DNA from: Bimastos eiseni
Lineage: Eukaryota > Annelida > Clitellata > Crassiclitellata > Lumbricidae
Length of the DNA: 64,000 nt
Reading direction: 5' to 3'
NCBI GenBank assembly: GCA_959347315.1
Contig: OY365813.1
Location: 12,376,829-12,440,828, forward strand
Part shown: positions 1 to 61,168 of the stretch, piece after piece
How positions within the stretch are numbered: the first letter of the stretch is position 1
How the letters are laid out: each line of letters opens with the position of its first letter
Translations under genes and position numbers: made by a program
The notes under the pieces: generated by a model
Database searches by the model: none
What the model was told of the DNA's origin: nothing
The model's input: only the letters and a program-made list of their open reading frames with translations

Positions 1-17
1 GCAGCTGTCGTTGATTG
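1..17 (-). CDS. R1 tail exon, first 17 bases (partial)
   Basis: A CTGTTAG acceptor precedes CAATCAACGACAGCTGC, read Q-S-T-T-A. This aligns with the tail-exon start Q-P-T-T-T of R2 behind a nearly identical acceptor context. The exon continues past the window edge, so its tyrosine motifs cannot be seen. Confidence 0.6.
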
Positions 18-2384
18 CTAACAGGACGAGACTTCATACCCTATATAACTGAGAGGTTATAACGCCCAATATCATACTGGCCAAGTGGATAGTGAAATGG
101 TCGTCAAGAGATCAATGGTTCGAAACTCCATAAAGAATTTGGATCGATACATCAGCTCAAATTGCGCATCATAACCAACTCGGTTATAATGACCGTATAC
201 TGTAATTGGTAAATAAGACGCCAAGGTAGAGATATGGTCACGCGCACTGTTATGCCAAGGATAAGAAAATTGAAGTTGATTATTCTCGTGCTGTACAATC
301 GGCTGATTCAATTTCAAACCCTTGCTCATCGCCTGTGTAGTCTGAGGTTGTGCCAAATAGTTCAGTACTCTGGCTGGCTAATATGATCATCTTTGTGCTA
401 TCTTAATGGTTATTTTGTCAGAAAATGCTTCATCGTGATTGTGATTATGAATATGACAAACTTAAACACGCGGTGGCGCAGTGGTACTTTCCGTACCTTT
501 CTACCGAAGGATTGCCGGTTTGAACCCACCTCAAGTCACTTGGACAAGTTGGTCACCCATAATTGTCTGCGAGGAAGACGACGGGAGACCGCCTCACTCA
601 CCTCATCCCCGGGTGACGAAAAACCAAATGAATCTGCCCTTCGGGCACAAAACACATAATCAAAGACGTTTCATGTGCAGTAGTTCGTTGAACCGAACAT
701 TTTGGCTTCAAGCTTTCTTGAGCAATAATTTATGCAATGCTTCTAGCGTGCTCAATGATCTATGAAGTTCATAGACAAATATAAGACCTTAATATAGTCG
801 TTGGTCTATGAACTGTAGCAGATTTTTTGCAGCAGTCCTACAATAATAATTTGATGACACAGCGGCTAATGATCGCACTCAACCTCCCTAAAGTATAATC
901 GATGTCTATTTATTAGCTTGCTATGGACGTTGTTGACATAATATTATTTTCTTTATTTCATAAATGTATGTACATATATATATACATAAATGTTTCTGCT
1001 TAATCTACTTTAAACCAAATTAATTTCAACTGTTTCTAATTTCAACTGTTGGTAATTCAGGGTTTTATATCTTATAGCACAATTGTCCATGCTGTAACCG
1101 AAATAGCATATGCAAATACTGATTAAAACGACAAAGACTGTCTCTGAAGATACAATAATTATACCTGATGTGAGTTGTTCTGACGACTTCTGCAGACAAG
1201 AAACGTGATACAGCAACCGAGCAACACCAAGAGAGCGATTCCCAAAAGGACGGCCAGAACAATAACTGCGGCGACCAGGTTCTCTTTACCGACACATTGA
1301 ACCTGGTCACCATCCGGCGTATAACATTTCGTCTGGTCTACGTAGCCTAAATATTATATATTTATAGAGTACGTGTTATAGGTCAGACAGAATGACATAA
1401 GGAGAACAAAACGATGATTCGAATGTTGTCAAGGGTTGCGTGTGATTTACGTACGCTTCAGGCCTAAAGCTGTTCGTCAGACAGAGGTATAGTCGATTCA
1501 GTTGGAAGATTAATATTAACAGACTCACGCTATAATCCTTCTAAAACAAATGGTATAACGTAAAATAAAATGTTTTCCTGACAATACATGGAACAGAAAT
1601 CTTCGGGAAATATTAACGTGCGATTTTGGCAAAGTTACATAATTCAATGAACAATGGAACCATAACAGAATAGGCTTTAGTATTGCTTATGATTAATAGA
1701 GAGCTTCGTTGCATCACATCGCATTTTGCAGTCTATTGAGCATAATATTACTGTCATCTCTCGTTGCTATAGACTCACCCGCTCTTGACACTCGCACACC
1801 TTTCAAAATCGCCAGAGCGTACGTGTAGGTATAGCCATCACCACCGTACACAACGAAGTCGAATACAAACTTATGTCCAGTTGGTAAGATATCGTATGTA
1901 ATTTGGTTGTCAGTGTCGGCTATGGTGTAAGATTTGTTACTGCATTGAGTCATTAACTCAACGCAACACGTTACATTTAGCCACATCATGTCGTCACTGG
2001 AATCTGTAATGCTAAAATTAATCTTAGCCCGGTTTCCTTTAACTGATATGTCAACGGGAGAAGTGTCAAAGATGAGTCTTTTGGTAGTACTGAATGTCAA
2101 CGCACGGACACCACTGGACCCAAATGTGTTGACTGACCAAATACTGGCCTCGTTGTCTGTCTCTGGTTGAATGTTGCTCTGAAACAAGGCGTTACAAATC
2201 GAATTGTAGCAAGCTGTTGCAAGAGGAGCAGCTTGCGTTTCCACTTCAAAGTCGCTTTTAGCATCCATTAGTCGTATGAAGACTGTTTGTTGAACACCAT
2301 TAAACCACGTGCAGCGCCATTGAAGCGAGACGAGGGCATGTGTCACAAATTGTACACTGAAATTCGTTGGAGTATCAGGCGATC
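1..2384 (-). CDS. R1: 3' part of an Ig/FN3-family receptor gene (FN3, TM, start of tail)
   Basis: Visible exons are FN3 (1779-2384), stalk plus transmembrane (1165-1346) and the first 17 bases of the tail (1-17), which runs off the window. Splice sites are canonical and phases match R2, R4 and R5 (1 into FN3 and TM, 0 into the tail). No signal-peptide or Ig exon is found between 2.4 and 6.1 kb, although 5'-flank sequence like that of R2 lies at 6.06-6.48 kb. The homologous intron stops at about 4.01 kb, just before a 200-N gap. Either R1 has lost its Ig head or the assembly is wrong there. All visible exons are open, so the 3' half is not obviously decayed. By analogy with the intact paralogues it would be a single-pass membrane protein. 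The family function is unknown; receptor-like is inference. Confidence 0.72.
78..142 (+). repeat. Possible old tRNA-like (SINE-type) segment in R1 intron
   Basis: TGGCCAAGTGG resembles a pol III A box and GGTTCGAAACT a B box about 30 bases later. A diverged equivalent lies in the matching R2 intron at about 11626, so the segment predates the R1/R2 duplication or is simply homologous intron. Confidence 0.35.
466..545 (+). repeat. tRNA-derived SINE-like head
   Basis: GTGGCGCAGTGGT at 472 matches the A-box pattern, and GGTTTGAACCC at 517 is one base from a B box. The spacing is tRNA-like, but no full cloverleaf is evident. Confidence 0.45.
1165..1346 (-). CDS. R1 stalk and transmembrane exon
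   Basis: 61 codons after adding the split G. The stalk has two cysteines (around KCYTPDG and VQCVGKE). A hydrophobic helix built on [19 protein letters not shown] follows, then a short basic stretch (CRSRQNNSHQ). Acceptor ATATTTAG and donor CAG|GTATAA; phase 1 in, phase 0 out. It is almost identical in DNA to the R2 exon at 12087-12268. Confidence 0.85.
1779..2384 (-). CDS. R1 double FN3-like exon
   Basis: 606 bases, phase 1 both ends (acceptor TTTGCAG|GA, donor GCGG|GTGAGT). The first module (about residues 1-100) runs from SPDTPTNFSVQF through VSLQWRCTWFNG and IQPETDNEASIWSVNTFG. The second, more divergent module carries the [10 protein letters not shown] motif and ends [18 protein letters not shown]. 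Paired cysteines WRC and TACYNS are present in module 1. The close relative is the R2 exon. Confidence 0.85.
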
Positions 2385-5846: not shown

Positions 5847-5866
5847 ATAATAATAATAATAATAAC

Positions 5867-9959: not shown

Positions 9960-11168
9960 TATAGTAATATGGCCTGTGAATAAGCTAGTTACCGCGACTT
10001 CAGTTTTGTATGCGCTGTAGAAATATTGTGTTTACGATTACAATTAGTTGTTACCTTTGGTCTGTCCAGAGTTCCATTTGGTTTTGTGTGGAAAATAGTA
10101 TTCCTCACTTGCTCATAGTTATCTTCTTGCTAGGAAAAAAAGAAACATTTTATTACTATCGTCACAATAGCCACTGCCTTTGCATCAGCCATCACCACTG
10201 ACCAGGCCGACCTAGTCGCTTATTGACCAGAACCACGTTTATTAACGTAGCCTATATTATGAATCTCCGGTTGTCAACCTTCATTTAAATTCCTGACGTT
10301 CTCGAAAATATCTTCGACTTACCAAAATTAACTCACTATAGAGCTTGTTTTCGTTTTTTTAGTATATTACCCCTAGACGCCATCAATTGACTTCAAATTG
10401 TAAATATAATTATAAAATATATGTTTCGAGTTACACAGTGGTGGAAATAATTATTTATTGCATCACCCTGCATTAAGCTTAAAATCGAAATAATACATTT
10501 AAGGTCAGTATTTTTAATAATGAAGCTCAAATTATTCTGTAAACCCGCATAAAATCATTCGTTTACATATTTTCAGAAATGTCTGTTTGTCGATGCAAGG
10601 TGCAATATAAGAAAAATTCATTGATTCTACTCATTAGCTTACGTCCTAATATATCGTTGTACCGCCTGTGGCTTTGATCATAGATGATGCAACAATTATA
10701 ATTATATTCAATATCAGCGGAACATAAAAATTTCCGGAAATTGTCATTTTCAAAATTTGGATGTTTAGCTTAAATTTCTTTTGTTCACGATGATACTAAT
10801 CGTTTATTTAGAAAGATAACAGTCTGACAAAAAGCAGCAATGCTAACACGAGGAACAGTGAACAATAAAGCTAGAATACTTAACATGCTAGCAAATATTG
10901 AATGAACTGTTATGACAATTTTTATTTTGGTGTTTAATTCCGGATCATTTCAAAGCATAACGCTCTAGATTTTTTAGGCTTAGCAAGTATGTAACTTACA
11001 AAAACTGCTGATATTAATTTATACTTGTTTGCAGGGTTAGTCTTTCGCTGAAGTAAGAGCACGCAATATTGCAACAATGACATGCAGTTCATTGACGTAA
11101 ATCTTCTTAATAATGGGGCCTCTCAGACAATAGCAAGTGTAGCTTTTATTAAAGTCTCAATATCTAAC
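9960..11168. other. R2 3' region, no exon recognised
   Basis: The last R2 exon and poly(A) site should lie here or further left, because the tail exon ends in a phase-0 donor. No convincing short terminal exon was identified. Confidence 0.4.
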
Positions 11169-11318
11169 CTTATGCGCACCAGTTGGTGACTCGAGCGCTT
11201 TATAATAGGCGTTTTCCTTCGTCGGAGCAAAGTCGACTACAGGTTCGTAGATATCATCTCCATTGGTACATTCCGACGGCTCTCTCGGTCTAACATTCGG
11301 TCTTGTAGTTGTTGGTTG
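11169..11318 (-). CDS. R2 cytoplasmic tail exon with paired tyrosine motifs
   Basis: 50 codons, phase 0 both ends (acceptor CTGTTAG, donor CATAAG|GTTAGA). It starts [11 protein letters not shown]. An acidic stretch is followed by DDIYEPV, 11 residues, then YKAL inside NAYYKALES. YxxV-x11-YxxL resembles an ITAM but with long spacing and Val at the first +3 position. SH2-type docking after phosphorylation is inference. Confidence 0.8.
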
Positions 11319-11480: not shown

Positions 11481-14400
11481 TTCCGACGGCTCTCGGTCTA
11501 ACCTTCGGTCTTGTAGGTGTCGAGAGAGTTATATATATATATACATATATATATATACATATATATATATACATATATATATATGTATATATATGAAGAA
11601 CAGGTAATAAAACCTGAAATCAGGGTGGCTAAGTGGATGAAGGTTTGAACTGGCATTCTTCAAGAGATTGATTGATTATCGACGTTTTAAATAAATCAGT
11701 TAAACCTCATATGAGCCCGCCACTGCTCTCACTTTGGGAGTGCCAGAACATACCCTTGATATAAAAGGAAGACAAAGCTAATGACCTTGTCATTATAATA
11801 GTGTCGTTAAACTGTAACTGCTAAACTTCGCCAGGTCAGAATTTGCCTTGAAATATCAGCTCTTCCCATGCAATATAAGCCAATTTCTGAGCTTGCAAAA
11901 GGTCTATAGTTCATGCTCAATCCACTTGAAATGGAGTTAATTTAAAATTCTCGTACATCAGGAAAGTATGCCTTATAACGCAAGTGTAACGGTTAAGGGC
12001 GAAGGTCTGCAACCAAATCTGTTTAGGAAAATACTGACTAAAACGACGGTAACTGTCTTTCAAGAGGCTATAATTATAGGGCCTACCTGTTGTGATTTGT
12101 TTTGACGACTTCTGCAGACAAGAAACGCGATACAGCAACCGAGCAACACCAAGAGAGCGATTCCCAAAAGGACGGCCAGAACAATAACTGCGGCGACCAG
12201 GTTCTCTTTACCGACACATTGAACCTGGTCACCATCCGGCGAATAACATTTCGTCTGGTCTACGTAGCCTAAATATTCAACACATAATATTCAAAACATA
12301 ATATACAAGTAGGCCTACTCTGTATTATAGAGTAGGCTTACGTGTTATAGGTGAAACAAAATTGCCCCTTAAACGTTATGTGGATGCACATGACTAAACA
12401 ATAGAAATAATATAATGAGGTTGAGAGAAAACCAGATGACGTCATTTTGTCTACTTGTCCACTGCATCGTAATTAAGGCAATTAGAATGAAAAATGATGT
12501 TTATTTTTACTGAACTACAAACTCATTGATTCAGATTAAACAATTAGCGATTTAAATTAAAATAAAGTGTGTCGAGGGGACGTTATACGCTCATGTTTCG
12601 CCTCTGAATAAGTTTCTGGAAGATGCGCCATTTAATGAATGAATGAATGAAATGAATGAATGATTCATAAAGGTGACCACTCATGGAGTTAATGTCGAAT
12701 CTACATGTATGTGAGTTGTTCTCCTTGCTTGCAAAGTGCGTGACAAAATTTACTTGACATGGAGCAAGAACAGATTAGTATTGGTTATGTTTTTTTCGAC
12801 ACCGTCATTCATTGCATCATATTACATTGCCCCAGAGTCTATTGTGCGTAATATGGCTGTCATATCTTATTGCTATAGACTCACCCGCTCTTGCCACACG
12901 CACGCCTTTCAAAATCGCCAGAGCGTACGTGTAGGTATAGCCATCACCATCGTACACAAGAAAGTCGAATACAAACTCATTTCCAACTGGTAACATGTCG
13001 TATGTAATTTGGTTGTCAGTGTTGGCTATGGTGTAAGATTTATTACTGCACTGAGTCGTTAACTCAACGCAACACGTTACATTTAGCCACATCATAGCAT
13101 CACTGGAATCTGTAATGCTGAAATTAATCTTAGCCTGACTTCCCATCACCGATATGTTAACTGGAGAAGTCTCAAAGATGAGACTTTTGGTAGTTGTGAC
13201 TGTCAATTTAAGGACACTAGTGGACCCGTATGTGTTGATTGACCAAATGCTGGCCTCGTAGTCTGTCTCTGGTTGAATGTTGTTTTGAAACAGAGTAGAA
13301 TACGCTGAATTGTAACAAGTTGATGAAGGAGAAGAAAATTGTGTTTCCACTTCTAAGTTGGTTGCCACATCTGTTAGTCGTACAAAGATTGTTTGTTGAG
13401 CTCCGTTGAACCACATGCAGCGCCATTGAAGCGAGACGAGGGCGTGTGTCACGAACTGTACACTGAAATTCGATGGAGTTTCAGGACGTCCTGTCAATAT
13501 TTACACACATACTGCAGATATTTTCATAGCTCAGTGATCTTAAAATCTTTTACCTCCTTTTGATTGCACGTGTAGCTCATCTTCACCTATAATATTATAT
13601 GGCCTGTTATGACAACCCTCTAGCTATACAAGCAATCTATGAATTTGATCAGCCATGTGGGGACTTGCTTAAAACTTTATTACTGAATTAATTCGTAGAT
13701 CACCAAACCCTCCCTTTACTCTGCTGATTATTTCAAACATCTAAGTGACTACTCACGCCCCGATGAAATCTGACATGTTCACCTCTCATCATTCCTTCAC
13801 TTAAATTACCAAAGCCAAATTTCGAAAGATAGAACAACTAGACATTTATTTGATCCACGAGTCAAGGTTGTCAAATAGATTGCTCGAAATAGAGAAGAGA
13901 ATAGTCATGGATGGGACGCCAACAAGGGATAGGCTAACCAGTAGCCTATTCCAGACAAATTACTTCCGGAACATTTTGGGTTAGGTGACTTTCCAGTAAA
14001 GGAACACTCAGATCAACACTGAACTTGTCCTGTCAGGTTCTGCACCTGTTGTAGTATGTTGACACTATCAGGAGAGTGGGAAGTGGTTGAGGAATCGAAA
14101 CAGGGCAATCAGATATTATTATCTAAAAAATTAGTCGTGTGACATAAGCCTCATTTTGTCAGATCGCATCACGAATAGAGTTTGCTATCAGGGCTATCGA
14201 ATTTTTCCTGTCAAGTTCTGCTTTGTTGTAGTCAGTTTACGCTGCCAGAAGAGTGTGAAGTGGGCGAAAAATTGAAATTGTGTAAATCTGACTTGACGTG
14301 GCATGACCACCAGCAATTTAAGTAGCAATATCGTCAGTATGGAAAGGTCGCAAAAGGACAGGCTTTTTAGTCAGCAGAAAAATACTACTGAAAATTGGGA

Positions 14401-40844: not shown

Positions 40845-43800
40845 CTAGCAAAGCAGAGAAGTTCATACATTAAACGATACGCCATGGCCATCCTGAGTTG
40901 GCATAAACGATTTGTTTCACAACAATTGCAACACTATCACAACAACCCATTTCGTATTAGAGGTAGTTATTGGTCTGGTACATTTTAAATTATTTAAACC
41001 GACATTACTTAAATCATTTTAAAATGATTCTGAATCTCTATTTGCTGCATGTTCGAGCGCTGGGTTTGACATCAACTCTATTTCTGAAAAAAATGACTTA
41101 TACACATGTTATCATTAGGCCTATATTCATTCGATCATCTTAACAGCTACACCCCGCACATAGTGCCTCCTCATAAAGTCTACTCGCAGCCGAAGGCGCT
41201 GACCAGCCCGACCACGGCGATGCAAATCAGATTGAAGCAACTCTAACAAAGGGGCAACAATACTTGGCAACAGTCGCATCTCTAAGGGTTCAAATAAGTG
41301 TTCTTACGATATTATCTCCTGTAAGTATTGTATATCTATACATGTAAGCTATACATTAACTGCTTGAAGCATAGTTTACTTTAATTGCAAGTAGTTCCAT
41401 ATTATACTGCGTTGGATATCTTTCAGAGTCAATGACGAACCCACCTTTCGTACTGAATTACATGGCCAGTAAAATACTCTTTACCTGATGCGAGTTGTTC
41501 TGACGATATTTGGATACAAGAGAACCGATCAAGCAGCCAAATAATGTAACAATAGCGATTCCCAAAAGGACGGCCAAAACAATGACAGCGATGACCAATG
41601 AATTGTCTTTTTCGACACATTGAACGTTACTCACACGCGGAAGACATTTTTTGGGATCTGAAAAATTTTCAATATTTGCAATTACAGTGGGACTATATAA
41701 CGTCTAACCGAGTGGCATATTTATTAGCAAGAGGACGGTTGCTACGTGAACTATTAACACCATAAAAATTAGTTAATGATACGACTTCACAATGGTCGTT
41801 TATTTTATTATTGCAATTAAAATAGAATCAACATTGTTAATTGTCCAAAAATTGCCCAGGTCAAGCAATGTATATAGATGTGTTTACAATTCTCTGTTGT
41901 CTTTATTCTTCTAAGTCAGTTGTATACTAGGAGTAAACTGGTATAGTATATTGGGAGTAAACGCTCCAATCTGAATTTTTATTTTAGGTAGGTGAACATT
42001 TAGCAAACTAGGCATATGTAAATGCGAACAAGCCTGCAAAACAGTTGACTCCGGGCCCCAACGGGGCCAACGTAGAGCAGACTCAGGAATCCTCGCCCCT
42101 AGGCAGGGCAGTCAATCAAACTTTACTTGAAAATTATTAGCATATGCCTATCTTAGTAGATAAATTGTTAACTACCGTTCGATACATGTTAATCTTTAGA
42201 ATATTTATATAATATGTTTTGCTGCAACTCTGCTTTTGTCTGGATTTAGAGTTGTAGACTCACCCATTGTTCTTGACACTGGCAAGCCTTTAATAATCGC
42301 CAACGTAGTCACATAGGTGTAGACATCAGTATCGTATACGATGAAGTCGAATACATACTCAGTTCCAGCTGGTAACATATCGAAAACAATTCGGTTTTCG
42401 GTGTAGGATATGTTATATTGTTTATTGTTGCACCGAGTCGTTAACTCAACGCAACATGTTACATTCAACAACATCAATGTCTTTGTGGAATCTATTATGC
42501 GGAAATTTATTGCAGCTTTGGATCCCATGATTGATATGTGCGCGGGTGAAATGTCAAAGGTGAGTTGTTTCGGAGTTCTGATGACTAACTTGACGACATT
42601 ACTTGTGCCAAGTGTATTGTATGACCAAATGTTGGCCACGTAATCTGTCTCAGGTTGAATATTATTTTCAAACAGAGTATAATAAGGTGAGTTGTAGCAA
42701 TCTGTTGCAAGGATAACAATTTTAGTTTCTACTTCCACGTCAATTGCGACACCCGTTAGTCGTATGAAGACTGTTTGCTGAGCCCCATTGGACCACGCAC
42801 ATCGCCATTGAAGCGAGACATCGCTGTGTGTCACGAACTGTACACTGAAATTCGACGGAGCGTCCGGAGGTCCTGTAAAATATTTGCAAAGAGAGAGAAT
42901 GAGACTGCAAACTTTCAATCTGCAATATAAGCACAGAAGCTAACATGCTATGAATGTAGTTAACATTCACGAATCGGACTCTAATGCGCAGTCATTCAAT
43001 GTTTTATATCGACCTGTAACCAGAACGATTTTACTGGAAAATATAAACTTAATAGACTATACAGTGTGTATGTGTGTGTATGTAGGTGTGTGTATGTGTG
43101 TGTATGTAGGTGTGTGTGTGTAGGTGTATGTGTGTAGGTGTATGTGTGTGTATGTATGTGTGTGTAGGTGTATGTGTGTGTATGTGTGTATATGTAAGTG
43201 TGTGTGTAGGTGTATGTGTGTGTAGGTGTGTTTGTGTAAGTGTGTGTGTGCATGTGTGTTGTTGATTGAATGCTTTAAAGTTTAAAAGATTAAAGTCGGG
43301 TCATGAATGCATCGATAACCCAGAGTTTGCTTACACACCCAATTTGTCTGTGCCATCGAACAGTTACTACTTGATTATGCGATTACTGTATTTACTTCTC
43401 CAACGATAATCTGGCAGTAAATTTCCTGGATCACTGACTAAATTATTCATCCCGCATTGTAAGATCTGTTGAATACGACTTTATGCATCAGACGACGCAA
43501 TTGATGAACTACGCGCATATTTCTCTGGAGCAAGCAACTCTCTCGATGATGATATTTGAAAAATGTATATTTTTATTTTTCTAATTATTATTATTATTAT
43601 TATTGTTATTATTATTATTATTATAATTATTATTATTATCATTATCATTATCATTTATATTATTATTACTATTATTATTACTTTTATTATTATTACTATC
43701 ATTATTACTATTATTATTCATATAATTACTCTTATTATTATTATTTTATTGACATTTGTAAAGCGAGTTGCCTAGAAAGCTATTCAGCGGTGCTCTTAAC

Positions 43801-46800: not shown

Positions 46801-46999
46801 AAATAAGTTGTTTCAACTGCTAATAATTTTTTCAATTGATATTTCAGATTGCGAATAAAGCCTCACTGCAAGCTTGCATTGTAGTTCATGCTGATGTGAA
46901 AAAATATATGAGACAAATATGCAGCGTTATGCACTTACCAGCCGAAATACTGATGGTCACACATTGGACCAGAACGCAGCAAAGGATCACAGCATTCAT
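40674..46999 (-). CDS. R4: three Ig-like and two FN3-like domain transmembrane receptor with tyrosine-motif tail
   Basis: Seven coding exons: signal peptide 46939-46999, Ig1 46095-46379, Ig2 44915-45265, Ig3 44123-44422, double FN3 42264-42872, TM 41485-41657, tail 40674-40844. Junctions are canonical and the reading frame is unbroken. A 5' UTR exon is inferred to end at 47679. The predicted protein is a type I membrane receptor with a glycosylated ectodomain; the tail carries DNYQSM and, after 11 residues, YTEL. YxxM is the PI3-kinase-type SH2 docking form, and the pair resembles a stretched ITAM. The tail exon ends at a phase-0 GTTAGA donor; if that donor is not used, a stop follows three codons later. 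Introns contain TG- and TTA-microsatellites and a short LINE end. This is the most compact complete member of the array. Confidence 0.86.
41485..41657 (-). CDS. R4 stalk and transmembrane exon
   Basis: 58 codons: DPKKCLPRVSNVQCVEKD stalk with two cysteines, helix [20 protein letters not shown], then a basic SKYRQNNSHQ. Acceptor TTTTTCAG|AT, donor CAG|GTAAAG, phase 1 in and 0 out. Confidence 0.87.
42264..42872 (-). CDS. R4 double FN3-like exon
   Basis: 609 bases, phase 1 both ends (acceptor TTTTACAG|GA, donor ATGG|GTGAGT). It begins [14 protein letters not shown]; module 1 has VSLQWRCAWSNG, TDCYNS and IQPETDYVANIWSYNTLG. Module 2 has [13 protein letters not shown] and EYVFDFIVYDTDVYTY. The cysteines in WRC and TDC are candidates for a disulfide. 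Confidence 0.87.
43055..43256. repeat. TG-rich (GTGTAT/GTAGGTGTG) minisatellite
   Basis: Imperfect TGTGTA and TGTAGG arrays in the R4 FN3-Ig3 intron. Confidence 0.93.
43583..43750. repeat. (TTA)n microsatellite
   Basis: TTA/TCA trinucleotide array, followed to about 43970 by a LINE/SINE-like segment. Confidence 0.93.
44123..44422 (-). CDS. R4 Ig-like domain 3 exon
   Basis: 100 codons, phase 1 both ends (acceptor TTTCAG|GT, donor ACAG|GTAAAT). Segments are [46 protein letters not shown] and FQVLPTG. No cysteine is present. Confidence 0.86.
44915..45265 (-). CDS. R4 Ig-like domain 2 exon
   Basis: 117 codons, phase 1 both ends (acceptor TTTTCAG|TC, donor TACA|GTGAGT). Canonical cysteines are in GDRIELNCSANS and TDNMFYCSAQEEGS; Trp is in QYAWHNDW; the E-strand-like KTLVIASVRF is present. 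Confidence 0.88.
45491..45800 (-). mobile_element. Non-LTR element 3' UTR with (TTA)n tail
   Basis: An (ATA)n tract at 45491-45525 is followed on the plus strand by CGCCGATTTATAAGGCGCCG and several GCGCCGTAC words, the arrangement of a minus-strand L2-like 3' end. No coding part recognised. Confidence 0.45.
46095..46379 (-). CDS. R4 Ig-like domain 1 exon
   Basis: 95 codons, phase 1 both ends (acceptor TTGTAG|TA, donor TATG|GTAAGT). Segments are [40 protein letters not shown] and AVLYLYG. The F-strand Cys is replaced by Leu, as in R2, R3 and R5. Confidence 0.86.
46939..46999 (-). CDS. R4 start codon and signal peptide exon
   Basis: It encodes MNAVILCCVLVQCVTISISA and ends CTG|GTAAGT in phase 1. 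An acceptor TTTATTCCCAG lies 16 bases before the ATG, so the exon also carries a little 5' UTR. The leader resembles that of R2 (MNVVIFYC). Confidence 0.84.
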
Positions 47000-48880: not shown

Positions 48881-50850
48881 AAAATGCATCTGTCGGCGAC
48901 TTTATGAGGAGTACAGACTGGATCAAGTGGAGTGTTATATTTAGAGGTTTGGTTGGGTAGACAAGGCTGGCTTGAGGGTTAAGGGCTGACTGTACTGTAG
49001 GGAGTTGTCGCTTTGCGATAGGGCTTTGAAGCTAACGCGTTCAACTATTTTCAGCCAGTGGGTTAATTTAATCTACGAGAGTGGTAGACCCTATATAATG
49101 ACATTTATTGAAAATTGATTATCTCAGTTCAGTTAGGCTAAAATACAAAGTTGAGGACATGTCAGCTCACTAGATCTTTAAATTACGGAATCAGCACATT
49201 TCGCGCACTGAGCACTGCTTTGATCCATTACGGGGATGGATGTTCCATTTCTTCCAATATGCATCCTACAACAAACTTAAATACATGCAGGTGACTGACT
49301 GATCCTTATGTACATTGGAAACTGAACTGTAGAGCTGGCTGAACATGGGGTTTAATTTACAGCAACTATAAGCTTACTAGCATTGGTAAAATACGCTTAG
49401 AAATAACGCTAGGTAGCCTATATGGCTACTATAATGTCAGCAAGCAAATGGCTTCTAGAAAGTCTAATCGTAATCGCAATTGATCTCCAATTTCTAAACC
49501 GAAACTCAAAAGCCAAGCGCAAGTCACAAGTTTACTAACGAGCATCGCATAATATGTAGTTGTAAACTCTACCCAACGCAAGCAAATAATTGGCTAAATA
49601 ATAATCTATTCCAAGACAACAATAGAATTTTAATGCAATGTTTGTACGATATATGCACCAGTCTGTGATACATAGTCAATTAATAAAAGCAAACCTTCCG
49701 AATATGTCGGTTACTAAGATATGTACAAAGTCCCATGCAAGTCTGCAACCGTAGGTTCTTTTCAAGACACTGACCAGTCTGTCAAACTATACTGATTTGG
49801 TTTATTTAGACTATGACCAATCAACGTAGACCTATCATCGTCGTGTTTAACTAGGTAGTTACCTTTCGTGTTTATTTACATTATGAATTAAACTTTAATC
49901 ACTGATCGTTATTAAATAAAACATTGACTAAAGTATTCCTGTTCATGATAAAAATTTCTTCTCCATCTTGCTCTTTAGAGGCTTTTCTCTCTCCTCCAAA
50001 GCTGTTGCGCTGATTTTCGCTCAATTACGATGATTCTATATTTAAAAGATGCAACATAATCATTAATCAGGCATCATTAGGCCTACATTTCTACGTGAAT
50101 TGTTATCCCACGTCAAAAGCGAGCAGATAAGCTACCAGAAAATAAAACAATCCTGTATATTCCAGATTACCATACAGGACCCGTCTATTAGGCCTATATA
50201 AGAATCTTGTAATAGCCATTGGCCTAGTAGTATGTGTCAAGTTTTATCATGTTTATTACGGTTAATATTAAATTCGCGTGTTAAAGCTGCATTTTCACTT
50301 TGCTGTCAAATGATCACGCGATTACAACGATATCAATCCATGTCCGGTATCATAATAATCGATTACAATAAAGTACAATATGATATAATATAGCTGTAGT
50401 TGTTATTGTCCTCCTCCCAACAGTCAGAAGTGCACACGACCATACGATAAGCCTATATATAATTATATATATAAATATATATGAGTTGCAAATTGTCATT
50501 TTTAGAAGCAATATAAACTAATGTTGCAAACTTGACATAGAAGTAAATGAGACAGAAAATGAGACGCGGTTTGAATTAGATATATCTGCAACTCACTGTA
50601 CAGCCCTAATAACAGACTTATGTCACACAGTATGCTCGCATTGTAACACTGACTCAGAGGCAATTATCATTAACCTAGACAATGAAGCAGCTCACAATAA
50701 AAATCACAACTGCAGCAATTACTCAGCCACTTGAAATAATGCCGGAAATGATGTTCGCTCTGCTACGGTCGAAAGCAATGGCAAAGATAGAGTATGTCTG
50801 GCAGCTTGGCACTTCTGAAGCCTTTCAGCAACGACGATTCACTATCTTAC
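48881..50850. other. R5 3' region, no exon recognised
   Basis: The terminal R5 exon must lie here or be shared elsewhere, since the tail exon ends in a phase-0 donor. I see no convincing candidate, RNA gene or transposase. Confidence 0.4.
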
Positions 50851-51003
50851 CTTGGGCTTAGCAACCTGAGGAAGCGTATCAAGCGATGCGTAATATCCAT
50901 CGTCGAATGGTGGGTTAGTTGGAAGTTCGTAGGTACAATCTTCCTCGTAATGATTTGCTGCATTTGTGGCATTGGTAGGTCGAGTTATAGCTGGTTGTTG
51001 GGG
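50851..51003 (-). CDS. R5 cytoplasmic tail exon with tyrosine motifs
   Basis: 51 codons, phase 0 both ends (acceptor GTTGGCAG, donor CCCAAG|GTAAGA). It starts PQQPAITRPTN. Tyrosines lie in NHYEED, CTYELP and DDGYYASLDTL. YASL fits YxxL; the upstream YELP has Leu at +2 rather than +3. Confidence 0.78.
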
Positions 51004-54000
51004 CTGCCAACGCAGAAAGTAATGAAGTCATTAAGACTGTTGTAAAAATAGCAGCGTCAAAAGATTGCATCTCAGTTATTTAGCGGGATGATTATGTTCG
51101 GTTTCATCTCTCAAACCACAGTACAAATCATATACCCTATTCCTTTGCTTAAAGATTAGACCCTACTAAAGCTGCTTGTTGTATTTACTAAACGAAATTT
51201 ATCTTTGGCACTTTTCATATTTTATGCGGCATATATGAAGAAGAGGAGTATTTGCTAATGTGTGGTCTTATAGTGTGAGCCTTAAAAAAGCTTTACCTGA
51301 CTTGGGTTCTTTGATTGTGACTTTTTACGACGATCGTTGACAATGAAAGCTATCAGGCATCCAATTAGCCCAAAGACAGCGAGTCCCAAAAGGACGGCCA
51401 GAACTATGACAGCGACTTGCAGAGAATTGTCTTTTCCAGTATCTGAGATGGGTGTCGTGGAAGCTGTGAATTTTAATGGCATGCACTGAGCTTAACGAAA
51501 AACATTAATGGGAAGAGCATTTGCATCAATGGATTTCTTTCAAAATGCATAGACGACTATCATTTAAATACCAATGAACAGAGTATCATCATCATTTCAA
51601 ACAAGCGAATGAGCATGAAACTGAATCCTATCATTACAGAAATTTTCTCAAACCACGATTTGCTCATGAAGCAAAGTAACAGAAAATATATTCATTATCA
51701 TATTATTTTTTCTGTACATAAGTAGGCCTATATTTAACATAACATAAGTTTTAAGTTGTTTCGAAGTGTTGGAACTACTGCAAATACCTTGGAACGCTTA
51801 TTAGCCCAACTTTCAAAGAATCTTCTTTAAAGGTGTGATGGTGTCCACCAAGGCCATTCCACAAATCAATAACTCAACTCCTGCATTAAGAATTTCTGTC
51901 CCAATGTTCTTTTCGGTTTCTTAAGGTATTTATACCCACAATATTCGTCTTCGAGACGCCTTGTATGGTATTTAATATAAAGAACCTCTCTCACTGAATT
52001 TCACTGTAGATTTAATCGTAGTGCTTCCGTTTTATTGATTATAATCTTGTAGGCTTCGATTAGATCTTATCTATTCCTGCTTCTCTCTAATGTTGTTAGT
52101 TAACTCCTTTTCAGACATCTTCAGTACTGAAATCCTTGCATCGCCAACTCATTTTCTAGTTCTTCATTTTACCTTCTTTAGTTTTGTAGGTGTGGGATTC
52201 CAGCTCTTAATGTAGTATTCCAACTACGGTCGATTTAGTCAATCTCAGTATTTATTCTTGTCTGTGGTGACTATTATCCAACTTATCATATCTGAAGTTC
52301 CGTTAGCAGTATCTAATGTTTTAGCACTTCACACTGAAGATATAGATAGTGCTCTCTTGCACAATCACTACCAAGTTTCTTTCTTCCTCGCCTTGTTTCA
52401 ATGCTTTTTCTCCCATTTCATATGAACACATAAGGTTTTCTACTTTCTAAACATAATTTTAACAAATGAATTGCTGCTAGTTTTTACTTTGCAAAGTATG
52501 TAAATATTTTCAACAATTTAATCAGATATTTGTTTCTGTTAAATTACCCCCAGTCATCTCAGAAGTTAGAACGCTTTTATATAAATTTTATGGCTTATAC
52601 AATGGATCTATCCCCATAAGTTTGCTTGAGCATGAAACAAATTAGATTTAATTGAATTTCTATCTTTATTTGATTGACTTTTTAACTATGATTTTGTTAC
52701 AATGACATAAGTTTTCGGGTTTAAGTGCGTATTCAAAGACAAATCCTGGTGGTACTATAAATGTTTTCAAGAGGGATCTTTTGAGCGTCAATCAAGTCTA
52801 GTTTGCATCATATGACGAAGATGCTATTAAATCACACCTTGTTCTCTTCAGGATAGTACCCGTATCACTCCAATGCTTTTCATGCTCCCCATTACACCCA
52901 CCCATAGGATTGACCTATTTTAAAGTAATCATACTATTACAATAATAGCAGCAGACCCACCAGGTATTCTTGATATTTGTACGCCCTTCACAATCGCCAA
53001 AGTATACGTGTAAGTGTAGCCATCACTCACATACACATTGAAGTCGAATACGTATTCATTTCCTGTTGGCAAAGCGTCATATACAATTCGGTTGTCAGTT
53101 TTGTATATGATGTACGACTGATTACTACACTGAGCTGTTAACTCAACACAGCAAGTAATATTTAGCCACATTGCATCATAACTGGAATTAGCAATGGTGA
53201 AATTGATTGTAGCCTGGGATCCTTCAATCGATATGTCAGCTGGAGAAGTCTCGAAGCTGAGTTCTTTCGGAGTTCTGACAGACATTTTGACGACATTACT
53301 GGAACCAAATGTATTGACTGACCAAATGCTGGCTTCGTAGTCTGTCTCTGGTTGAATGCTGTTTTGAAACAGAGTAGTAAAGGCTGAATTGTAAGAATTT
53401 GCTGCAGGAGTCATGATCTGCGTTTCTACTTCAGTGTTGCTCATGACATCAGTTAGTCGTACGAAGACTGTTTGGTCAGCTCCATTCGACCCCATGGACA
53501 ACCATTGAAGCGAGATGAGGCTTTGAGTTGCATACTGTAGACTGAAATTCGACGGCACATCAGGTGGTCCTGTAAAAATCCACTTAAACACTTCATTCCT
53601 CGTGCTATAGCTATAATTTACTTAAATGGCAGACGATTGACTCGATGCACTTCATCTATGAGAATTGGAATTGAAGCATGATATAATATGCTAGCTCAAG
53701 TACCCGGCTTCGCCCGGGTTGAACTGCGTAAGGTAGTCATTGCAGTTCTTAAATGTGCTGAACATTGCTTCCCCATGCTCGCCTATAAGGAGGCATTTAC
53801 AATATGTGCACATGACTGGCCACTTTTGGCAGGTATTTGCACATATTGTAAATTTCTCCTTATAGGCGAGCATGGGGGAATGGGCAGCATTATGGGATCG
53901 GAACAACCTCCCTCTTTGTTTTTCCTCGGCTGCTAAAAAGTATTCGTGGAAAACTTGGGAAGAGGAGGAGGAGGTGGCGTTAGAGGGAAGGGCGGAGTAT

Positions 54001-57000
54001 CTGGAGAAAGAGAGGAGAAAATAACGAGGTGAAGGAGGTAGGGGAATATGAGGAGGGTAGCGATTGGGGTGGGGATGGAAGTATAGAAAGGGATTGACAG
54101 GAAGGAAGTTGGAGGTAGAGGTAAATGGTTAGGGGAAATAGAAACGGAGAGGGGAGCAAAAAGGGGGCCGAATAGGGTGATGAGGGAGCCGATTAAGAGT
54201 GAAGGGGATAGGTGGGGAGAGAACAGATGTGGGAGAGGTGGGGAAGGTGAGAAACTAGGGGAAATAAAATGAGAACGGAAAGAGGAGGGCAAATGAACTA
54301 AGATTAACCTTCTACAACGGGCAAATAATACAATGCAATACAATACAGTACAGTGTAGAGTTAAATGTGCTGAACATTACTTCCCCATGCTCGCCTATAA
54401 GGAGGCATTTACAACATGTGCACATGACTGGCCACTTTTGGCAGGTATTTGCACATATTGTAAATTCCTCCTTATAGGCGAGCATGGGGGAATGGGCAGC
54501 ATTATGGGATCGGAACAACCTCCCTCTTTATTTTTCCTCGGCTGCTAAAAAGTATTCGTGGAAAACTTGGGAAGAGGAGGAGGAGGTGGCGTTAGAGGGA
54601 AGGGCGGAGTATCTGGAGAAAGAGAGGAGAAAATAACGAGGTGAAGTAATGCAGTAATGTACAGTATTATACAAAATATCACACCATAAAATGATATAAG
54701 GGTATAATACTGTAGGCGCATCGATTGTCAGCTGTTTAAGGTTGCCTTCGAGTCCAGTATAGTCGTTCTTTGAGTAGAACTTAGCTTTAAAGGGGAAAAT
54801 TCGTCTATTTGTTCCAAGTAATGCACACGAACTGGCGATAAGAAAATCTTTACAAAGTTCCCATGCGAATTTCTAGGTCAACCGGACTATTTTCATCACA
54901 CAACTTACTTTAAATTTCGATATTTGAACATCTTTCGTTTCGTATTGCATGATTCGCTGACATTCGATATAACAACAATTATTGTATTTGCATTTGCATC
55001 ATCTTAAGACTGAGCCAATTTCAATTTGTAAATTCAGGCGCGTTAGTTATAATGCCACGGCCTCACTCAAAGCGCTCGCAAAAATGAAACAATTACGATT
55101 GTGTAGACCTACAATGTACTGGGAAACAGAGTCGATGTAAAGCACCAGCTGAGCTTAAAATTCAATCCCGGGCTAAACTGGTTTATTTGACAAGTCATGT
55201 ACTAGGGAATGACAATGGTAAAATGTATGCCTGTATGTATACCTGGAGGAAGCACTTTTAATGTTTCTATTCTTGAACCGTTGCTATTGGTCAAGTTGAC
55301 AGAGTAAGCTCCATAAGAATTCGACGAGGAGAGCCTAAAATTCAGATAAACAGTACCACTGGTCACGCCATTGATAGTCAGCGGCAATTGAGATGTGTAT
55401 CCTGATCCATTTATAAAAGTCCAATTGGTCCACGACGTCAGTGGAGGATTTGCGGCAAACGAGAAATAGCAAAAAACGCTGGAATAAAGAGCTGCGTTGC
55501 ATATTTTGCTTGCTGGGTTGAAGCCATATGTATAGGGTTTACCTAAAATGACAAAACGTGCACTGAGTTGATTGATTGAATACACTCAGACGAAGTTTAT
55601 TTATGAACCATCCAGCCTCTCTGCTCTATGTACGTGTGTATGAAGCACTTCAACTAAGCAGATCGATCTTCCGAATTGTACACATACAATGTATTAGTAC
55701 ATTCAGAATGCCGTCGCTTACCACATCATCGCACAAAAACTGTACAAAACATACAAGATGACAACCAGAAGTCCTCCTCTGAATGAAGCTGCGCTCGTTA
55801 ATAAACCGGTGCCCTGCGATTGGCCTTTGAGTAGCGCTTTATAAATTCGGAATTTACCATAATGATTTACCAATAAGGTTAACAATGTAAAAGGTCAGAT
55901 AAGGCGCTTACACAACGTTAACACCACACTCAGCGACAATGACACTACTTCATACATCATCCTTCGACAAATACCTATTAATCAGTCTGCATTCTTTCTA
56001 ACTACTCTTAAGACTGCTCTGTTCGGCCGGGGTTGAGCTGGGAGCGATTCTGAGTAGGCAAACTTGAAAGGGCGCTATGTAAAATTACTGTAATAATAAA
56101 AAATAATAAAAAAACTGTATATAACATTATATTGTTTATTTCACCCCAATGTACTTCTTTGCACTGCGCTGAATGTGTTGCACACCAGTGCAGATTTTTG
56201 TAGAAGCCCATGCAGTGCACATCTTTAAGAGCCTTTGTGCCTTGATGAGACAGTGCAGAGTAGTATACATCATTCTACTGCAATTTTATTAGCATTGTGA
56301 ACATTATTGTAGAAAAGCATTTCTACTGCTATTCTTAAGAGCCCATCAGAATGCATGCCTCATTTCGGGACAGAGTTTACAAAGTGTTCAAGCCCATCCC
56401 CTCTTTAACATTACTATTAGGACGGTCAATCGAGATTAAAAACATCGCTCAGTTGGATATATCCTTAGTTTTCACTCAGTAAGCAGTCTTATCCTAACTG
56501 AACATACAACAATATAAATAGACTTTCATTAAATGGTTAAATTATGATAATTAAGCTTGGTACTCACTGTAAACCTGTATGCCTATCGAATAACCATATT
56601 TGTTAGGTGATCCTTCTTCCTGACAATAGCATATAATATTGCCTCTATCTTCATACTGAACTGAAGCGATAGCAAGGGTCCTTCCGTCATTTTTAAAACT
56701 GTATCCAGGAACTACGAATCCATTTTGTAATACCGCAGGTCCACTGGAAATGTTCCGGAAGTAGCCATTCCCGCCACTGAACCAGATGTAGTACCAGATG
56801 TAGTTGATTTTAGGTCGATAGGTGGCTGGTGCTGAATTGGAATTGGCTGAGCAATTGAATTCGATAGTATCGCCTTCGAATGCAGGATTTCGTCCTACTG
56901 CCAGTGTTGAGGTGACGCTAAGTATGTCTGAAATAAGTTGTCATAGAATGCCGTATTAAAGATTAAACAAAAAAGTTAAAAGAATATCACTAGGCCAGTA

Positions 57001-60000: not shown

Positions 60001-61168
60001 TAGAACTATTGTACAGCGATAATGTTGTGACTAAGTATATGTAATTTAAGAAATGATATTCTTTAAGCTTAAGTTATATTTAGTTAGTGTTGTATTAAGT
60101 GGAGACTTACTGTAAATAAAAAGCACGGCAGAAGAGCTCACGGTCGTCGAAAGTCCAGTGCTGATGGATAAGGAATAAGATCCGGAATCAGACAGCTGGA
60201 TATTCCATATCATGAGTGTTACCACGCTTTTTCCACTGTCAAACGTGTGATTGGTGTTTGGACCCAAAGTCGTCGTACTTCCTGTCCTTTGGATGGTATA
60301 ACTTGTGAAATATCCATCCACGTTCCACTTAAATATACAGCTATCTCTTAGAACTTTTCTCTGCATAACTGCAGTCGATATTGTTACTAAATAACACAAA
60401 CAAAAGTAACACATATTTATTGGCCATCAAGTTGCTAATATCGCCCAGATTTTCTCTAGGTCTGCGCTAATGGATCTTTGTTGAAGGACTTTACTTCAGT
60501 ATTGACTGTTAGTAATAAGAAGGCGACATGTCTTTAAAGCGACATCGATGTTAAACTTTAAAAATAAAATAAAAAAGGAGATATGCCAATTCAAAAATAA
60601 CGTGACATTTGCATAACCAAGGCTCAAAGCAGAGTTTCAGCTTATTAAATTACTTACAAACATCTTGATCAGCTTGCCACATGCCAAAAGTTAATTCAAC
60701 AACTTTGTCGATAAATATTGTAGCATGGGACTTAATCACAGTGTATTTTCGCAGTGGGCCTATATTTATTCACTTTGAAAGTCAACACTTTCCATTTATC
60801 GGAGGTAGGAAGATAGAAGCATTTATAGTTTCTGACGTAACTGATTTGGATTTATACATGAATGCATAGGCATTCATTAGAAAGACACATGTAGGGATGT
60901 TATTTGCTTTTAATGGTTTGAAACTCATAAGTCGTTCAAATTTTGGTTTAGATTTAAACATAATCTACAATCGAATGATGAAACTCAATAAACTATTGAC
61001 TAACAATAATACTATTATATAGAGCTGTTTTTAAATTCAACGTGACCTCGAATAATTATTCCTACAAGTCTACTTGAAAATCCATGACTGAATTGAACTT
61101 AATATGAACTCACCTGACAAGGCCTCGGTGATGCACAGGGCCATCAAAAATGTCACGAAATACTTCAT
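50851..61168 (-). CDS. R5: three Ig-like and two FN3-like domain transmembrane receptor with tyrosine-motif tail
   Basis: Seven coding exons: signal peptide 61114-61168, Ig1 60111-60386, Ig2 56568-56927, Ig3 55243-55542, double FN3 52961-53569, TM 51297-51490, tail 50851-51003. All splice sites and phases agree with R2 and R4. Introns are longer because of insertions: foldback repeats (53.75-54.65 kb) in the FN3-Ig3 intron, and a Tc1/mariner relic, a 200-N gap and a LINE piece in the Ig2-Ig1 intron. The predicted product is a type I membrane protein. The tail has CTYELP and GYYASL; Tyr-to-Tyr spacing is 13, not the 15 of R2 and R4. FN3 module 1 has lost both of the cysteines conserved in the other four genes. 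A phase-0 donor closes the tail exon; the last exon was not found in 47.8-50.8 kb. Confidence 0.85.
51297..51490 (-). CDS. R5 stalk and transmembrane exon
   Basis: 65 codons: stalk AQCMPLKFTASTTPISDTGK with one cysteine, helix [19 protein letters not shown], basic NDRRKKSQSKNPSQ. Acceptor CGTTAAG|CT is the AG that gives the right phase; donor CAG|GTAAAG. The stalk differs strongly from R1, R2 and R4 while the helix core VIVLAVLLG is conserved. Confidence 0.82.
51820..52200 (-). mobile_element. LINE C-terminal relic in R5 TM-FN3 intron
   Basis: The minus strand reads DLIEAYKIIINKTEALR, SVREVLYIKYHTRRLEDEYC, then QKFLMQELSY and FVEWPWWTPSHL with stops. This resembles the LRGDLIEAYKI ... FF..R..N.WN.LP end of RTE/CR1-type ORFs. 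Heavily broken. Confidence 0.5.
52961..53569 (-). CDS. R5 double FN3-like exon
   Basis: 609 bases, phase 1 both ends (acceptor TTTACAG|GA, donor CCTG|GTGGGT). It begins GPPDVPSNFSLQYA; module 1 has ISLQWLSMGSNGADQ and NSYNSAFT, so both usual cysteines are gone. Module 2 keeps WLNITCCVELTAQC and EYVFDFNVYVSDGYTYTY. Confidence 0.87.
53750..54034. repeat. Foldback-containing repeat, copy 1
   Basis: Inverted arms 53771-53810 and 53838-53877 (CCCATGCTCGCCTATAAGGA and complement) are followed by a G/A-rich segment. The entire unit recurs at 54362-54646 almost unchanged. It may be a MITE-like foldback element. Confidence 0.88.
53940..54290. repeat. Polypurine tract
   Basis: The plus strand is G/A-rich with AGGAGG runs, between the two foldback copies. 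Confidence 0.75.
54362..54646. repeat. Foldback-containing repeat, copy 2
   Basis: Near-identical copy of 53750-54034, offset 612 bases, including the hairpin arms (54383-54422 and 54450-54489) and the GGAGGAGGTGGCGTTAGAGG segment. Confidence 0.88.
55243..55542 (-). CDS. R5 Ig-like domain 3 exon
   Basis: 100 codons, phase 1 both ends (acceptor TTTTAG|GT, donor CCAG|GTATAC). Segments are SKPYTYGFNPASKICN, NPPLTSWTNWTFINGSG, SYGAYSVNLTNSNGS and LKVLPPG. Two cysteines (SKIC, VFCYF) both lie in the N-terminal half, so they do not form the usual B-F pair. Confidence 0.86.
56010..56110. repeat. LINE-like 3' end
   Basis: GGGTTGAGCTGGGAGCGATT, then GGGCGCTATGTAAAATTACTG and AATAATAAA: a plus-strand L2-type terminus in the R5 Ig3-Ig2 intron. 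No ORF remains. Confidence 0.45.
56568..56927 (-). CDS. R5 Ig-like domain 2 exon
   Basis: 120 codons, phase 1 both ends (acceptor TTTCAG|AC, donor TACA|GTGAGT). It has GDTIEFNCSANS and DRGNIICYCQEEGS cysteines, a Trp-rich C-strand region and RTLAIASVQYED. A six-residue insertion-like stretch before GNGYFRN makes it slightly longer than R2 and R4. Confidence 0.85.
57765..57815 (+). mobile_element. Inverted fragment of the same transposase
   Basis: GACACAAAAGATCGTTCACCGTTTTCAA at 57770-57797 is the reverse complement (one mismatch) of the segment in the transposase relic near 58551-58578. On the plus strand it reads LTQKIVHRFQ. It indicates a second, head-on copy or a rearranged end. Confidence 0.7.
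58080..58600 (-). mobile_element. Tc1/mariner (IS630-like) transposase relic
   Basis: The minus strand reads FVHRFQLKYLDQNDSVKE, stop, MLTDESTFKVFYVPNAQND, VWGSLEENVPSPPQMTLRL, SVMVWGGMTAFTLWQLVPD, stop, then FPQDDAGCHTSAMTTKWLDD and NFLLHPKDWSLNNRTPLLS. DE in TDES and D in QDDA fit the first two catalytic acidic residues of a DDE transposase, and SVMVWGG is typical. Two or more stops make it inactive. The third acidic residue and the ends were not identified. Confidence 0.85.
58866..59065. other. Assembly gap, 200 Ns
   Basis: Exactly 200 Ns inside the R5 Ig2-Ig1 intron, between a Tc1/mariner relic and a LINE fragment. Confidence 0.98.
59170..59430 (+). mobile_element. LINE RT fragment in R5 intron
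   Basis: The plus-strand frame INPDESEAILSDACLP, then FSDTTKTLGVRLDSKFAFRS, follows the NPDKSE(A/V)xLFG ... VKxLGVxLDSxLxF pattern of L2/CR1-type reverse transcriptases. It starts near the gap and is decayed. Confidence 0.7.
59440..59880. other. GC-richer insertion of unknown type
   Basis: The segment (CCCCCAAGGGCGAAGTGCGG, AAACGGGGATCGGGGTTGCA, GGTCATCGGTCCATGGACC) differs in composition from its surroundings. It may be the 5' part of a retroelement; no coding similarity recognised. Confidence 0.35.
60111..60386 (-). CDS. R5 Ig-like domain 1 exon
   Basis: 92 codons, phase 1 both ends (acceptor TTATTTAG|TA, donor TACA|GTAAGT). Segments are RDSCIFKWNVDGYFTSYTI, VVTLMIWNIQLSDSGSYSL and AVLFIYS. 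There is a single cysteine; Leu is at the F-strand Cys position. Confidence 0.86.
61114..61168 (-). CDS. R5 start codon and signal peptide exon
   Basis: It encodes MKYFVTFLMALCITEALS and ends TCAG|GTGAGT in phase 1. The acceptor TTTACTAG lies 16 bases before the ATG. Lysine, hydrophobic core and A-L-S near the exon end make a good secretion signal. Confidence 0.86.

Follow-up and report, generated by a model that had tools for sequence, protein, structure and literature searches.

Tandem Ig/FN3 receptor-like genes form a single-chromosome cluster in the earthworm Bimastos eiseni

What kind of genes are the repeated Ig-like and FN3-like exons on one chromosome of the earthworm Bimastos eiseni, and could their products act as recognition receptors? 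The question is raised by the stretch of DNA analysed here (the window, 64,000 nucleotides, contig OY365813.1, positions 12,376,829 to 12,440,828). The preliminary description of this window proposed five minus-strand gene copies with the same exon order and exon phases, in a domain order not assignable to a named family. All five copies (A to E) exist and align with one another, but the array is not limited to them, and nine more copies flank the window. On balance, and by a modest measure, we favour the reading that the window covers the central part of a tandem array whose genes encode one family of type I transmembrane receptors, of the clustered IgSF/FN3 immune type.

The FN3-FN3 exon is present in all five window copies, the Ig1, Ig2 and Ig3 exons in four (B, C, D, and E) and the transmembrane (TM) exon also in four (A, B, D, and E), at the positions listed in Table 1. 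Mutual matches between the FN3-FN3 exons have E values from 3e-114 to 3e-42, far beyond chance, and those between the Ig exons from 4e-49 to 6e-16. Each Ig domain is encoded by its own exon, both FN3 domains share a single exon, and the set is repeated as separate genes. Genes B (642 amino acids) and D (653 amino acids) read through without interruption between ATG and stop codon, their splice sites being intact, and their layout is that of type I membrane proteins, with a signal peptide, three Ig domains, FN3-FN3, TM, and a tyrosine-containing tail. Gene E, whose start codon coincides with position 61168, assembles as an open frame from the signal peptide through the TM exon, and reaches the full type I layout only with a tail exon that is a proposal from a scan, made without a transcript of this gene. 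With that exon, the Ig-Ig-Ig-FN3-FN3-TM-tyrosine tail order first described is borne out by the assembly of B, D, and E, each of which has its own signal peptide and tail. In these three genes, the internal introns are of phase 1 and the intron between TM and tail is of phase 0.

Table 1. Exons of genes A to E in window coordinates
Feature	Position	Strand	Remark
Gene E signal-peptide exon (MKYFVTFLMALCITEALS), donor phase 1	61114..61168	-	
Gene E Ig1 exon, Ig-like, without canonical Cys pair	60111..60386	-	
Gene E Ig2 exon, with canonical Cys pair	56568..56927	-	
Gene E Ig3 exon, without canonical Cys pair	55243..55542	-	
Gene E FN3-FN3 exon	52961..53569	-	
Gene E TM exon	51297..51442	-	
Gene E proposed cytoplasmic-tail exon and stop (CTYELP..GYYASL)	50842..51003	-	scan
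Gene D signal-peptide exon	46939..46999	-	
Gene D Ig1 exon	46095..46379	-	
Gene D Ig2 exon	44915..45265	-	
Gene D Ig3 exon	44123..44422	-	family-alignment AlphaFold2 model, pLDDT 93.3
Gene D FN3-FN3 exon	42264..42872	-	Pfam fn3 barely above cut-off, exon alone; model pLDDT 88.8
Gene D TM exon	41485..41657	-	
Gene D cytoplasmic-tail exon and stop (NYQSM..NYTEL)	40662..40844	-	
Gene C Ig1 exon	33198..33479	-	boundaries by hand
Gene C Ig2 exon, approximate	31092..31400	-	donor not clear
Gene C Ig3 exon	29754..30056	-	boundaries by hand
Gene C FN3-FN3 exon, 3' end uncertain	28110..28715	-	
Gene B signal-peptide exon	18667..18724	-	
Gene B Ig1 exon	17474..17749	-	
Gene B Ig2 exon	16509..16859	-	
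Gene B Ig3 exon	14890..15183	-	
Gene B FN3-FN3 exon	12885..13490	-	
Gene B TM exon	12087..12268	-	
Gene B cytoplasmic-tail exon and stop (IYEPV..YYKAL)	11157..11318	-	
Gene A FN3-FN3 exon	1779..2384	-	boundaries by hand
Gene A TM exon, 91% DNA identity to B across 249 bases	1165..1346	-	boundaries by hand
Gene A tail exon, initial bases; remainder left of window (LYEPV..YYKSL)	1..17	-	

The proposed identity of exon order and phases holds for B, D, and E, but does not extend to the other two copies. In gene C, neither signal peptide, TM nor tail was detected, and the ends of its Ig2 exon are indistinct. A convincing TM exon was sought for C and for gene F of the cluster and none was found, F having one weak candidate unlike the TM of the family. 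Gene A is represented in the window by the FN3-FN3 exon, the TM exon, and the opening bases of a tail exon that continues beyond the window edge, and it lacks the Ig exons. The homology of A to B ends 36 bases before a gap of 200 N at 4047-4246, so the Ig exons of A may have been lost in the assembly and still be present in the genome. Two pairs of matching segments considered as tail exons, 47868-48092 with 21405-21637 and 35866-35960 with 23239-23340, were set aside as probable repeats.

The window is part of C8, a 35.49-Mb chromosome in the 660.45-Mb genome. A genome census, whose counts are lower bounds, found 14 copies of the FN3-FN3 exon, all on the minus strand, at 12.286-12.519 Mb of C8, so that the cluster comprises at least 14 gene copies over about 232 kb; the nine copies flanking the window belong to the same cluster as A to E. 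Three further FN3-FN3 copies lie at 15.19-15.22 Mb, 2.7 Mb from the main cluster, and a single degenerate one at 8.44 Mb. Across all chromosomes, the 19 FN3-FN3 matches and the 16 Ig2 matches are all on C8, and none was found elsewhere. The TM exon was matched in 12 of the 14 cluster genes and the tail exon in 10. Four tails, those of B, D, E, and P0001 (a protein of another species described below), served to build the tail model and so match it by construction, while those of g3, g4, g5, g6, and g13 have weak scores (E 0.016-1.0) and were accepted on position and order.

The names Ig and FN3 are putative assignments made from sequence, strand pattern, and weak Pfam matches. With E values up to 1 allowed, all four scanned members have Pfam I-set matches, the best at 1.2e-5; in the member shown they fall short of the cut-off. 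The fn3 model scored 25.3 bits against a cut-off of 25 in the D exon alone, the other three scanned exons having no match, and 16.3 bits, under that cut-off, when D was scanned as a whole protein, with no match in the other three members. The canonical cysteine pair is missing from Ig1 and Ig3. AlphaFold2, run separately on FN3-FN3 and on Ig3, gave all-beta models with pLDDT of 88.8 (two beta domains) and 93.3, respectively.

A single protein match, P0001, was found among 5.8 billion proteins, and the lineage specificity first proposed for the family would hold only as far as that database reaches into the animals. P0001 has 604 amino acids and comes from a 2,722-bp contig of another species, in which the same exons are joined, with 58% identity; along the cluster its matches follow the order Ig1-Ig2-Ig3-FN3-TM, single exons reaching as much as 69% identity, and its tail is of the same kind as the cluster tails. 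The joining of these exons is seen on a short contig, though in another species. Sequence matches to solved structures are all weak and generic (Titin, CEACAM6, Tie2, Contactin-4, and others; FcRL5 at E 0.064). In the protein database and among the solved structures, no described family matched one-to-one, and the view that the domain order belongs to no named family stands.

Eleven cytoplasmic tails were scored, ten from B. eiseni and that of P0001. A relaxed ITAM-like pattern, YxxΦ-x(6-12)-YxxΦ, occurs in seven of them, while 2000 shuffles gave a mean of 0.07 and a maximum of two, and YxxL occurs in ten (shuffles: mean 1.1, maximum 7). The strict ITAM, YxxL/I-x(6-12)-YxxL/I, is found in one tail, by eye that of P0001, and so in none of the ten B. 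eiseni tails. The spacing between the tyrosines is 13-15, which exceeds that of most ITAMs, and one tail tyrosine has been lost in each of g4 and g5. Strict ITIM was rejected as a description, with two tails matching and 260 of the 2000 shuffles equally good. We hold that the tails may work in the manner of an ITAM, and do not count the genes among the ITAM-bearing receptors.

The copies are diverse and mosaic. Gene C shares 84% identity with g3 in Ig2 and 70% in FN3, and 82% with g6 in FN3 and 72% in Ig3. The tandem diversification first proposed is upheld by the 14-copy cluster and these mosaic paralogues; we infer that the family diversified via tandem duplication, and exon-sized blocks were probably exchanged between copies. 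In every listed paralogue comparison (17 of 91 FN3 pairs, those with FN3 pN up to 0.28), dN is lower than dS, which is often near or above 1 and then near saturation, and exon-wide positive selection was not found among these pairs. Mean pN over the available genes is 0.30 for Ig1, 0.33 for Ig2, 0.37 for Ig3, and 0.36 for FN3, means that come from different gene sets (A and B are missing from the TM set), and the greatest divergence across paralogues is not in Ig1.

We read the cluster as new as a family, though of a kind already known, the nearest systems being compared by description. Vertebrate ITAM-type Fc and NK receptors are alike in that their short tails carry a spaced pair of YxxΦ sites, and the tyrosine spacing of Fc gamma RIIA is similarly wide; these receptors are not known to have an FN3 stalk, and sequence matches to them are weak only (FcRL5, as above). 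Dscam, a single long gene, has arrays of alternatively spliced exons and about 10 Ig and 6 FN3 domains, whereas the earthworm array consists of many short separate genes with three Ig and two FN3 domains each. Dscam likewise combines Ig and FN3 in a surface protein; splicing makes it hypervariable, and in arthropods it has been linked to immunity (PMC6851185). The Hydractinia complex has 40 Alr and Alr-like genes on chromosome 3 (PMC11876637). These tandem IgSF receptors are reported to include potential pseudogenes, to have Ig domains of V-set and I-set type, and to bear ITAM/ITIM motifs (PMC11876637, PMC12065747, PMC11999971). The earthworm genes, which show the same single-chromosome tandem clustering as the Alr family, differ in their stalk of two FN3 domains and belong to another phylum, a comparison by description. 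Botryllus FcoR are IgSF members located together in one locus, 520-610 amino acids long, with V-Ig, sushi, two C2-Ig, and TM; their tails bear motifs of the ITIM, hemITAM or core Yxx(I/L/V) type, and FN3 is not mentioned for them (PMC12065747). The earthworm layout is Ig-Ig-Ig-FN3-FN3, and a sushi match was absent at E up to 1 among the Pfam families listed for four members.

For the favoured receptor reading, a recognition role of the cluster is inferred. In an intact copy, a signal peptide is followed by three Ig-like domains, a stalk of two FN3 domains, one TM helix, and a short tail with two spaced tyrosines. In the most likely mechanism, the membrane-distal Ig domains would bind a surface ligand or a microbe, clustering of the receptor would lead a Src-type kinase to phosphorylate the tyrosine pair, and a protein with an SH2 domain would dock and signal, one resembling Syk should both sites be occupied. 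A census of SH2 gave 120 matches, which show only that SH2 exons exist, with no Syk identified. Non-immune receptors of adhesion or guidance in nerve, muscle, or epithelium (Dscam-, Tie2- or contactin-like), whose tyrosine tails would serve endocytosis or adaptor binding, are an unlikely alternative. YxxL is also compatible with endocytic signals, and the weak structure matches to Titin, CEACAM6, Tie2, and Contactin-4 and dN below dS in the listed pairs fit such a function; against it, those matches are generic, the spaced tyrosine pair is retained in most tails, and a large mosaic array on a single chromosome with some decayed copies would be unusual for conserved guidance genes. Two narrower possibilities are special cases of the receptor reading, so the confidences overlap. 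Pattern-recognition receptors for microbes, which a soil worm would encounter in numbers, are a tentative suggestion that we hold at low confidence. The oyster CgIgIT2, a lophotrochozoan IgSF receptor with TM, ITAM, and five Ig domains, is reported to recognise microbes, and FN3 is not mentioned for it (PMC11999971); compared by description, the earthworm genes differ from it in carrying three Ig and two FN3 domains.

It is improbable that the second special case holds and the cluster is an earthworm histocompatibility complex, in which polymorphic IgSF/FN3 proteins with ITAM-like tails would decide graft acceptance. Copies would then engage in homophilic or pairwise binding from one cell to another, and a mismatch of alleles would trigger, or fail to inhibit, rejection. 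Were this so, and we think it quite doubtful, the cluster would underlie, at the molecular level, the graft rejection that has been reported in earthworms from 1969 onwards, and would be an independent counterpart, among lophotrochozoans, to Hydractinia Alr and Botryllus fuhc. Mosaic paralogues suit this idea, as does the likeness of a tandem one-chromosome IgSF array with unusual Ig domains and tyrosine tails to the Hydractinia complex and Botryllus FcoR (PMC11876637, PMC12065747); the exon-wide dN/dS, not above 1 in the listed pairs, and the ranking of Ig1 speak against it. Among the listed matches of a literature search naming earthworms or annelids and allorecognition, no title pointed to a worm receptor. 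The cluster is a concrete, mappable candidate for such a receptor, and the family may contribute to the distinction of self from non-self in worms. Should it prove immune, it would be directly testable through haplotype comparison and grafting, and the combination of clustered Ig receptors and phosphotyrosine tails, present in cnidarians, tunicates, and vertebrates, would extend to annelids. Very improbably, the copies are mostly decaying or silent and the tail pattern reflects mere shared ancestry. No TM is detectable in C and F, stop codons occur in Ig1 and Ig2 of g3 and in some of the copies outside the main cluster (15.2 and 8.44 Mb), and g4 and g5 are each short of one tail tyrosine; the intact frames of B and D, that of E open to its TM exon, dN below dS, and the exons joined on a short contig in another species argue against general decay.

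The best-supported reading of the family on contig C8 is that of clustered immune-type receptors with predicted phosphotyrosine signalling. The genome searched has 660,451,143 bases in 118 contigs, and the FN3-FN3 exon of gene B, one of five minus-strand copies in the window (lettered A, the leftmost, to E), gave at least 19 matches, all of them on C8. The Ig2 exon of gene D gave at least 16 matches, also all on C8 and in the same three places; both counts are lower bounds.

Coordinates of the receptor family on contig C8 and of single exons in the window
Feature	Position	Strand	Remark
Window in genome	G000:C8:12376829-12440828		
FN3-FN3 matches	C8 12.286-12.519 Mb	minus	at least 14
FN3-FN3 matches	C8 15.187-15.222 Mb	both	at least 3
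FN3-FN3 matches	C8 8.439 Mb		two pieces
Candidate cytoplasmic-tail exon, gene E	51003-50842	minus	proposed
TM exon, gene A	1165-1346		
TM exon, gene B	12087-12268		

Exon-by-exon tblastn of the window located the FN3-FN3 exon in every one of the five copies, Ig1, Ig2 and Ig3 exons in all but A, and the TM exon in all but C. A scan for hydrophobic ATG exons gave signal peptides for B, D and E. Complete open frames, ATG to stop codon, were assembled for B (642 aa) and for D (653 aa); in both, all internal junctions have AG/GT, the extracellular exons are joined in phase 1 and the tail is entered in phase 0. E was assembled from ATG to TM, with splice sites and phases as in B and D. Signal peptide, TM and tail were sought in gene C and none was detected, and a clean Ig2 donor is absent; this gene may be decayed or secreted. 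Its Ig1-Ig2 interval holds LINE-type reverse-transcriptase fragments, identified by eye (window 31818-33080, minus strand). The Ig exons of gene A were not found in the window, and the tail of this gene falls immediately beyond the left edge; homology between A and B stops at C8:12380838 and an assembly gap starts at 12380875. The gaps of 200 N at window 4047-4246, which adjoins the truncated gene A, and 58866-59065, within an intron of gene E, are the sole ones in the 250 kb of cluster read.

A set of 5.8 billion proteins was queried with D by itself, with B, D and E together with P0001, and with five other copies and P0001 (where only candidates sharing most words were scored); P0001 was the single protein returned by each query set. 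This protein of 604 aa lies on a contig of 2,722 bases (source 'lgn'), which is compact against the 6.3 kb genomic span of D, so its exons are joined, and from this compactness we infer that P0001 is a transcript product. No exon shares more than 69% identity with the cluster genes, and P0001 is therefore taken as the protein of another species. Matches to P0001 place Ig1 in 9 genes of the 14-gene cluster, Ig2 in 12, Ig3 in 12 and FN3 in 14. A separate search placed TM in 12 genes and tails in 10. In this search neither TM nor tail was detected in C and F, and no tail in g2 and g14 (F and the g-numbers being copies of the wider cluster). Stop codons occur in 3 of the 58 matched stretches, of which g3 has two and F has one; since the Ig2 of F was free of stops in the genome-wide search with the D exon, the stop of F probably sits in an intron flanking Ig2. 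An extra family TM exon at C8:12471187, between g4 and g5 and outside the window, lacks a nearby FN3 exon of its own and is perhaps the remnant of a lost copy.

Pfam detects Ig and FN3 domains weakly. Among the exons scanned, Ig_3 matched the Ig2 exon of E at 3e-5 and fn3 matched one of four FN3-FN3 exons, that of D, at 25.3 bits against a cut-off of 25; neither of the two Ig3 exons scanned gave a match. In the assembled D protein fn3 went down to 16.3 bits, under the cut-off of 25, and it was absent from the other three members scanned; all four gave I-set matches with E no higher than 1. The AlphaFold2 models, built on family alignments (15 sequences for FN3-FN3, 11 for Ig3), have mean pLDDT of 88.8 and 93.3, respectively, and are all beta save short helical turns. 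In four of four window copies, both Cys and the Trp of Ig2 are conserved. With strands assigned by eye, Ig1 has the F-strand motif D/N-x-G-x-Y-x-L in all four copies and Trp apparently replaces its B-strand Cys, while no F-strand Cys was seen in Ig3 of the four copies, which therefore lacks a canonical Cys pair.

Eleven tails were compared, those of 10 cluster genes and P0001. Ten of them contain YxxL and seven contain YxxΦ-x(6-12)-YxxΦ, counts that none of 2000 residue shuffles reached; the shuffles disregard shared ancestry, thus the pattern is shown to be kept, not to have arisen repeatedly. Tyrosine spacing is 13-15 in tails with both tyrosines, and a strict ITAM is found in one tail, by eye that of P0001. 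The tail search model was trained on B, D, E and P0001, which match by construction. Among the seven other tails, four (g1, g3, g6 and A) follow the relaxed pattern; in g13 the two tyrosines are present and Φ is missing at the first site, g4 is without the first tyrosine and g5 without the second.

Among invertebrates, Hydractinia Alr, Botryllus FcoR and oyster CgIgIT2 are comparable systems (PMC11876637, PMC12065747, PMC11999971). The likeness to Alr is one of described features, and the domain content described for FcoR and CgIgIT2 rules out membership in either. Dscam is ruled out by domain content as well. No paper on the C8 family was found among the open-licence PMC papers listed.

In the 17 paralogue pairs listed, dN is lower than dS in every domain given, with ratios of about 0.14-0.63, which argues for coding and constraint, and nothing in them points to positive selection across whole exons. 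Identity between copies, compared in nine pairs, varies among domains: against four copies, C is closest to g3 in Ig2 (84%) and to g6 in FN3 (82%), and g4 and g6 share 85% in Ig3 vs 72% in Ig2. Exchange between copies would be the simplest reading of this mosaic, of which A and B are another instance: they are 91% identical in the DNA of the TM exon and 72% in the FN3 region, and the 42-base TM core of both matches that of E at 88%; this high TM likeness could come from gene conversion or from strong constraint on the TM helix. The FN3 of L016, an FN3-FN3 copy at 15.22 Mb, is by eye nearly identical to that of g5, which marks it as a recent copy.

Apart from the C8 family, an FN3-rich cluster of ~84 kb on one strand (C3:50021685-50105112) accounts for 58 of 150 scored FN3 matches, which also include smaller groups at C2:36.17-36.25, C5:38.31-38.37, C5:30.96-31.02, C7:17.95-17.97 and C2:55.27-55.31 Mb. 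In the mitochondrial contig C118 (15,339 bases, 4,338 read), the order is ND3, tRNA-Ser(tct), ND2, COX1, tRNA-Asn, COX2, tRNA-Asp, ATP8, tRNA-Tyr, tRNA-Gly and COX3, which is the annelid order; tRNAs were found by ARAGORN and protein genes named by eye from translation. Six near full-length COX1 copies, besides many fragments, are present in nuclear chromosomes (C15, C16, two in C6, C5 and C4), have TGA as their sole 'stops' and are apparently recent mtDNA insertions. A pair of these fragments at C8:15236818-15238154 adjoins the second receptor cluster.
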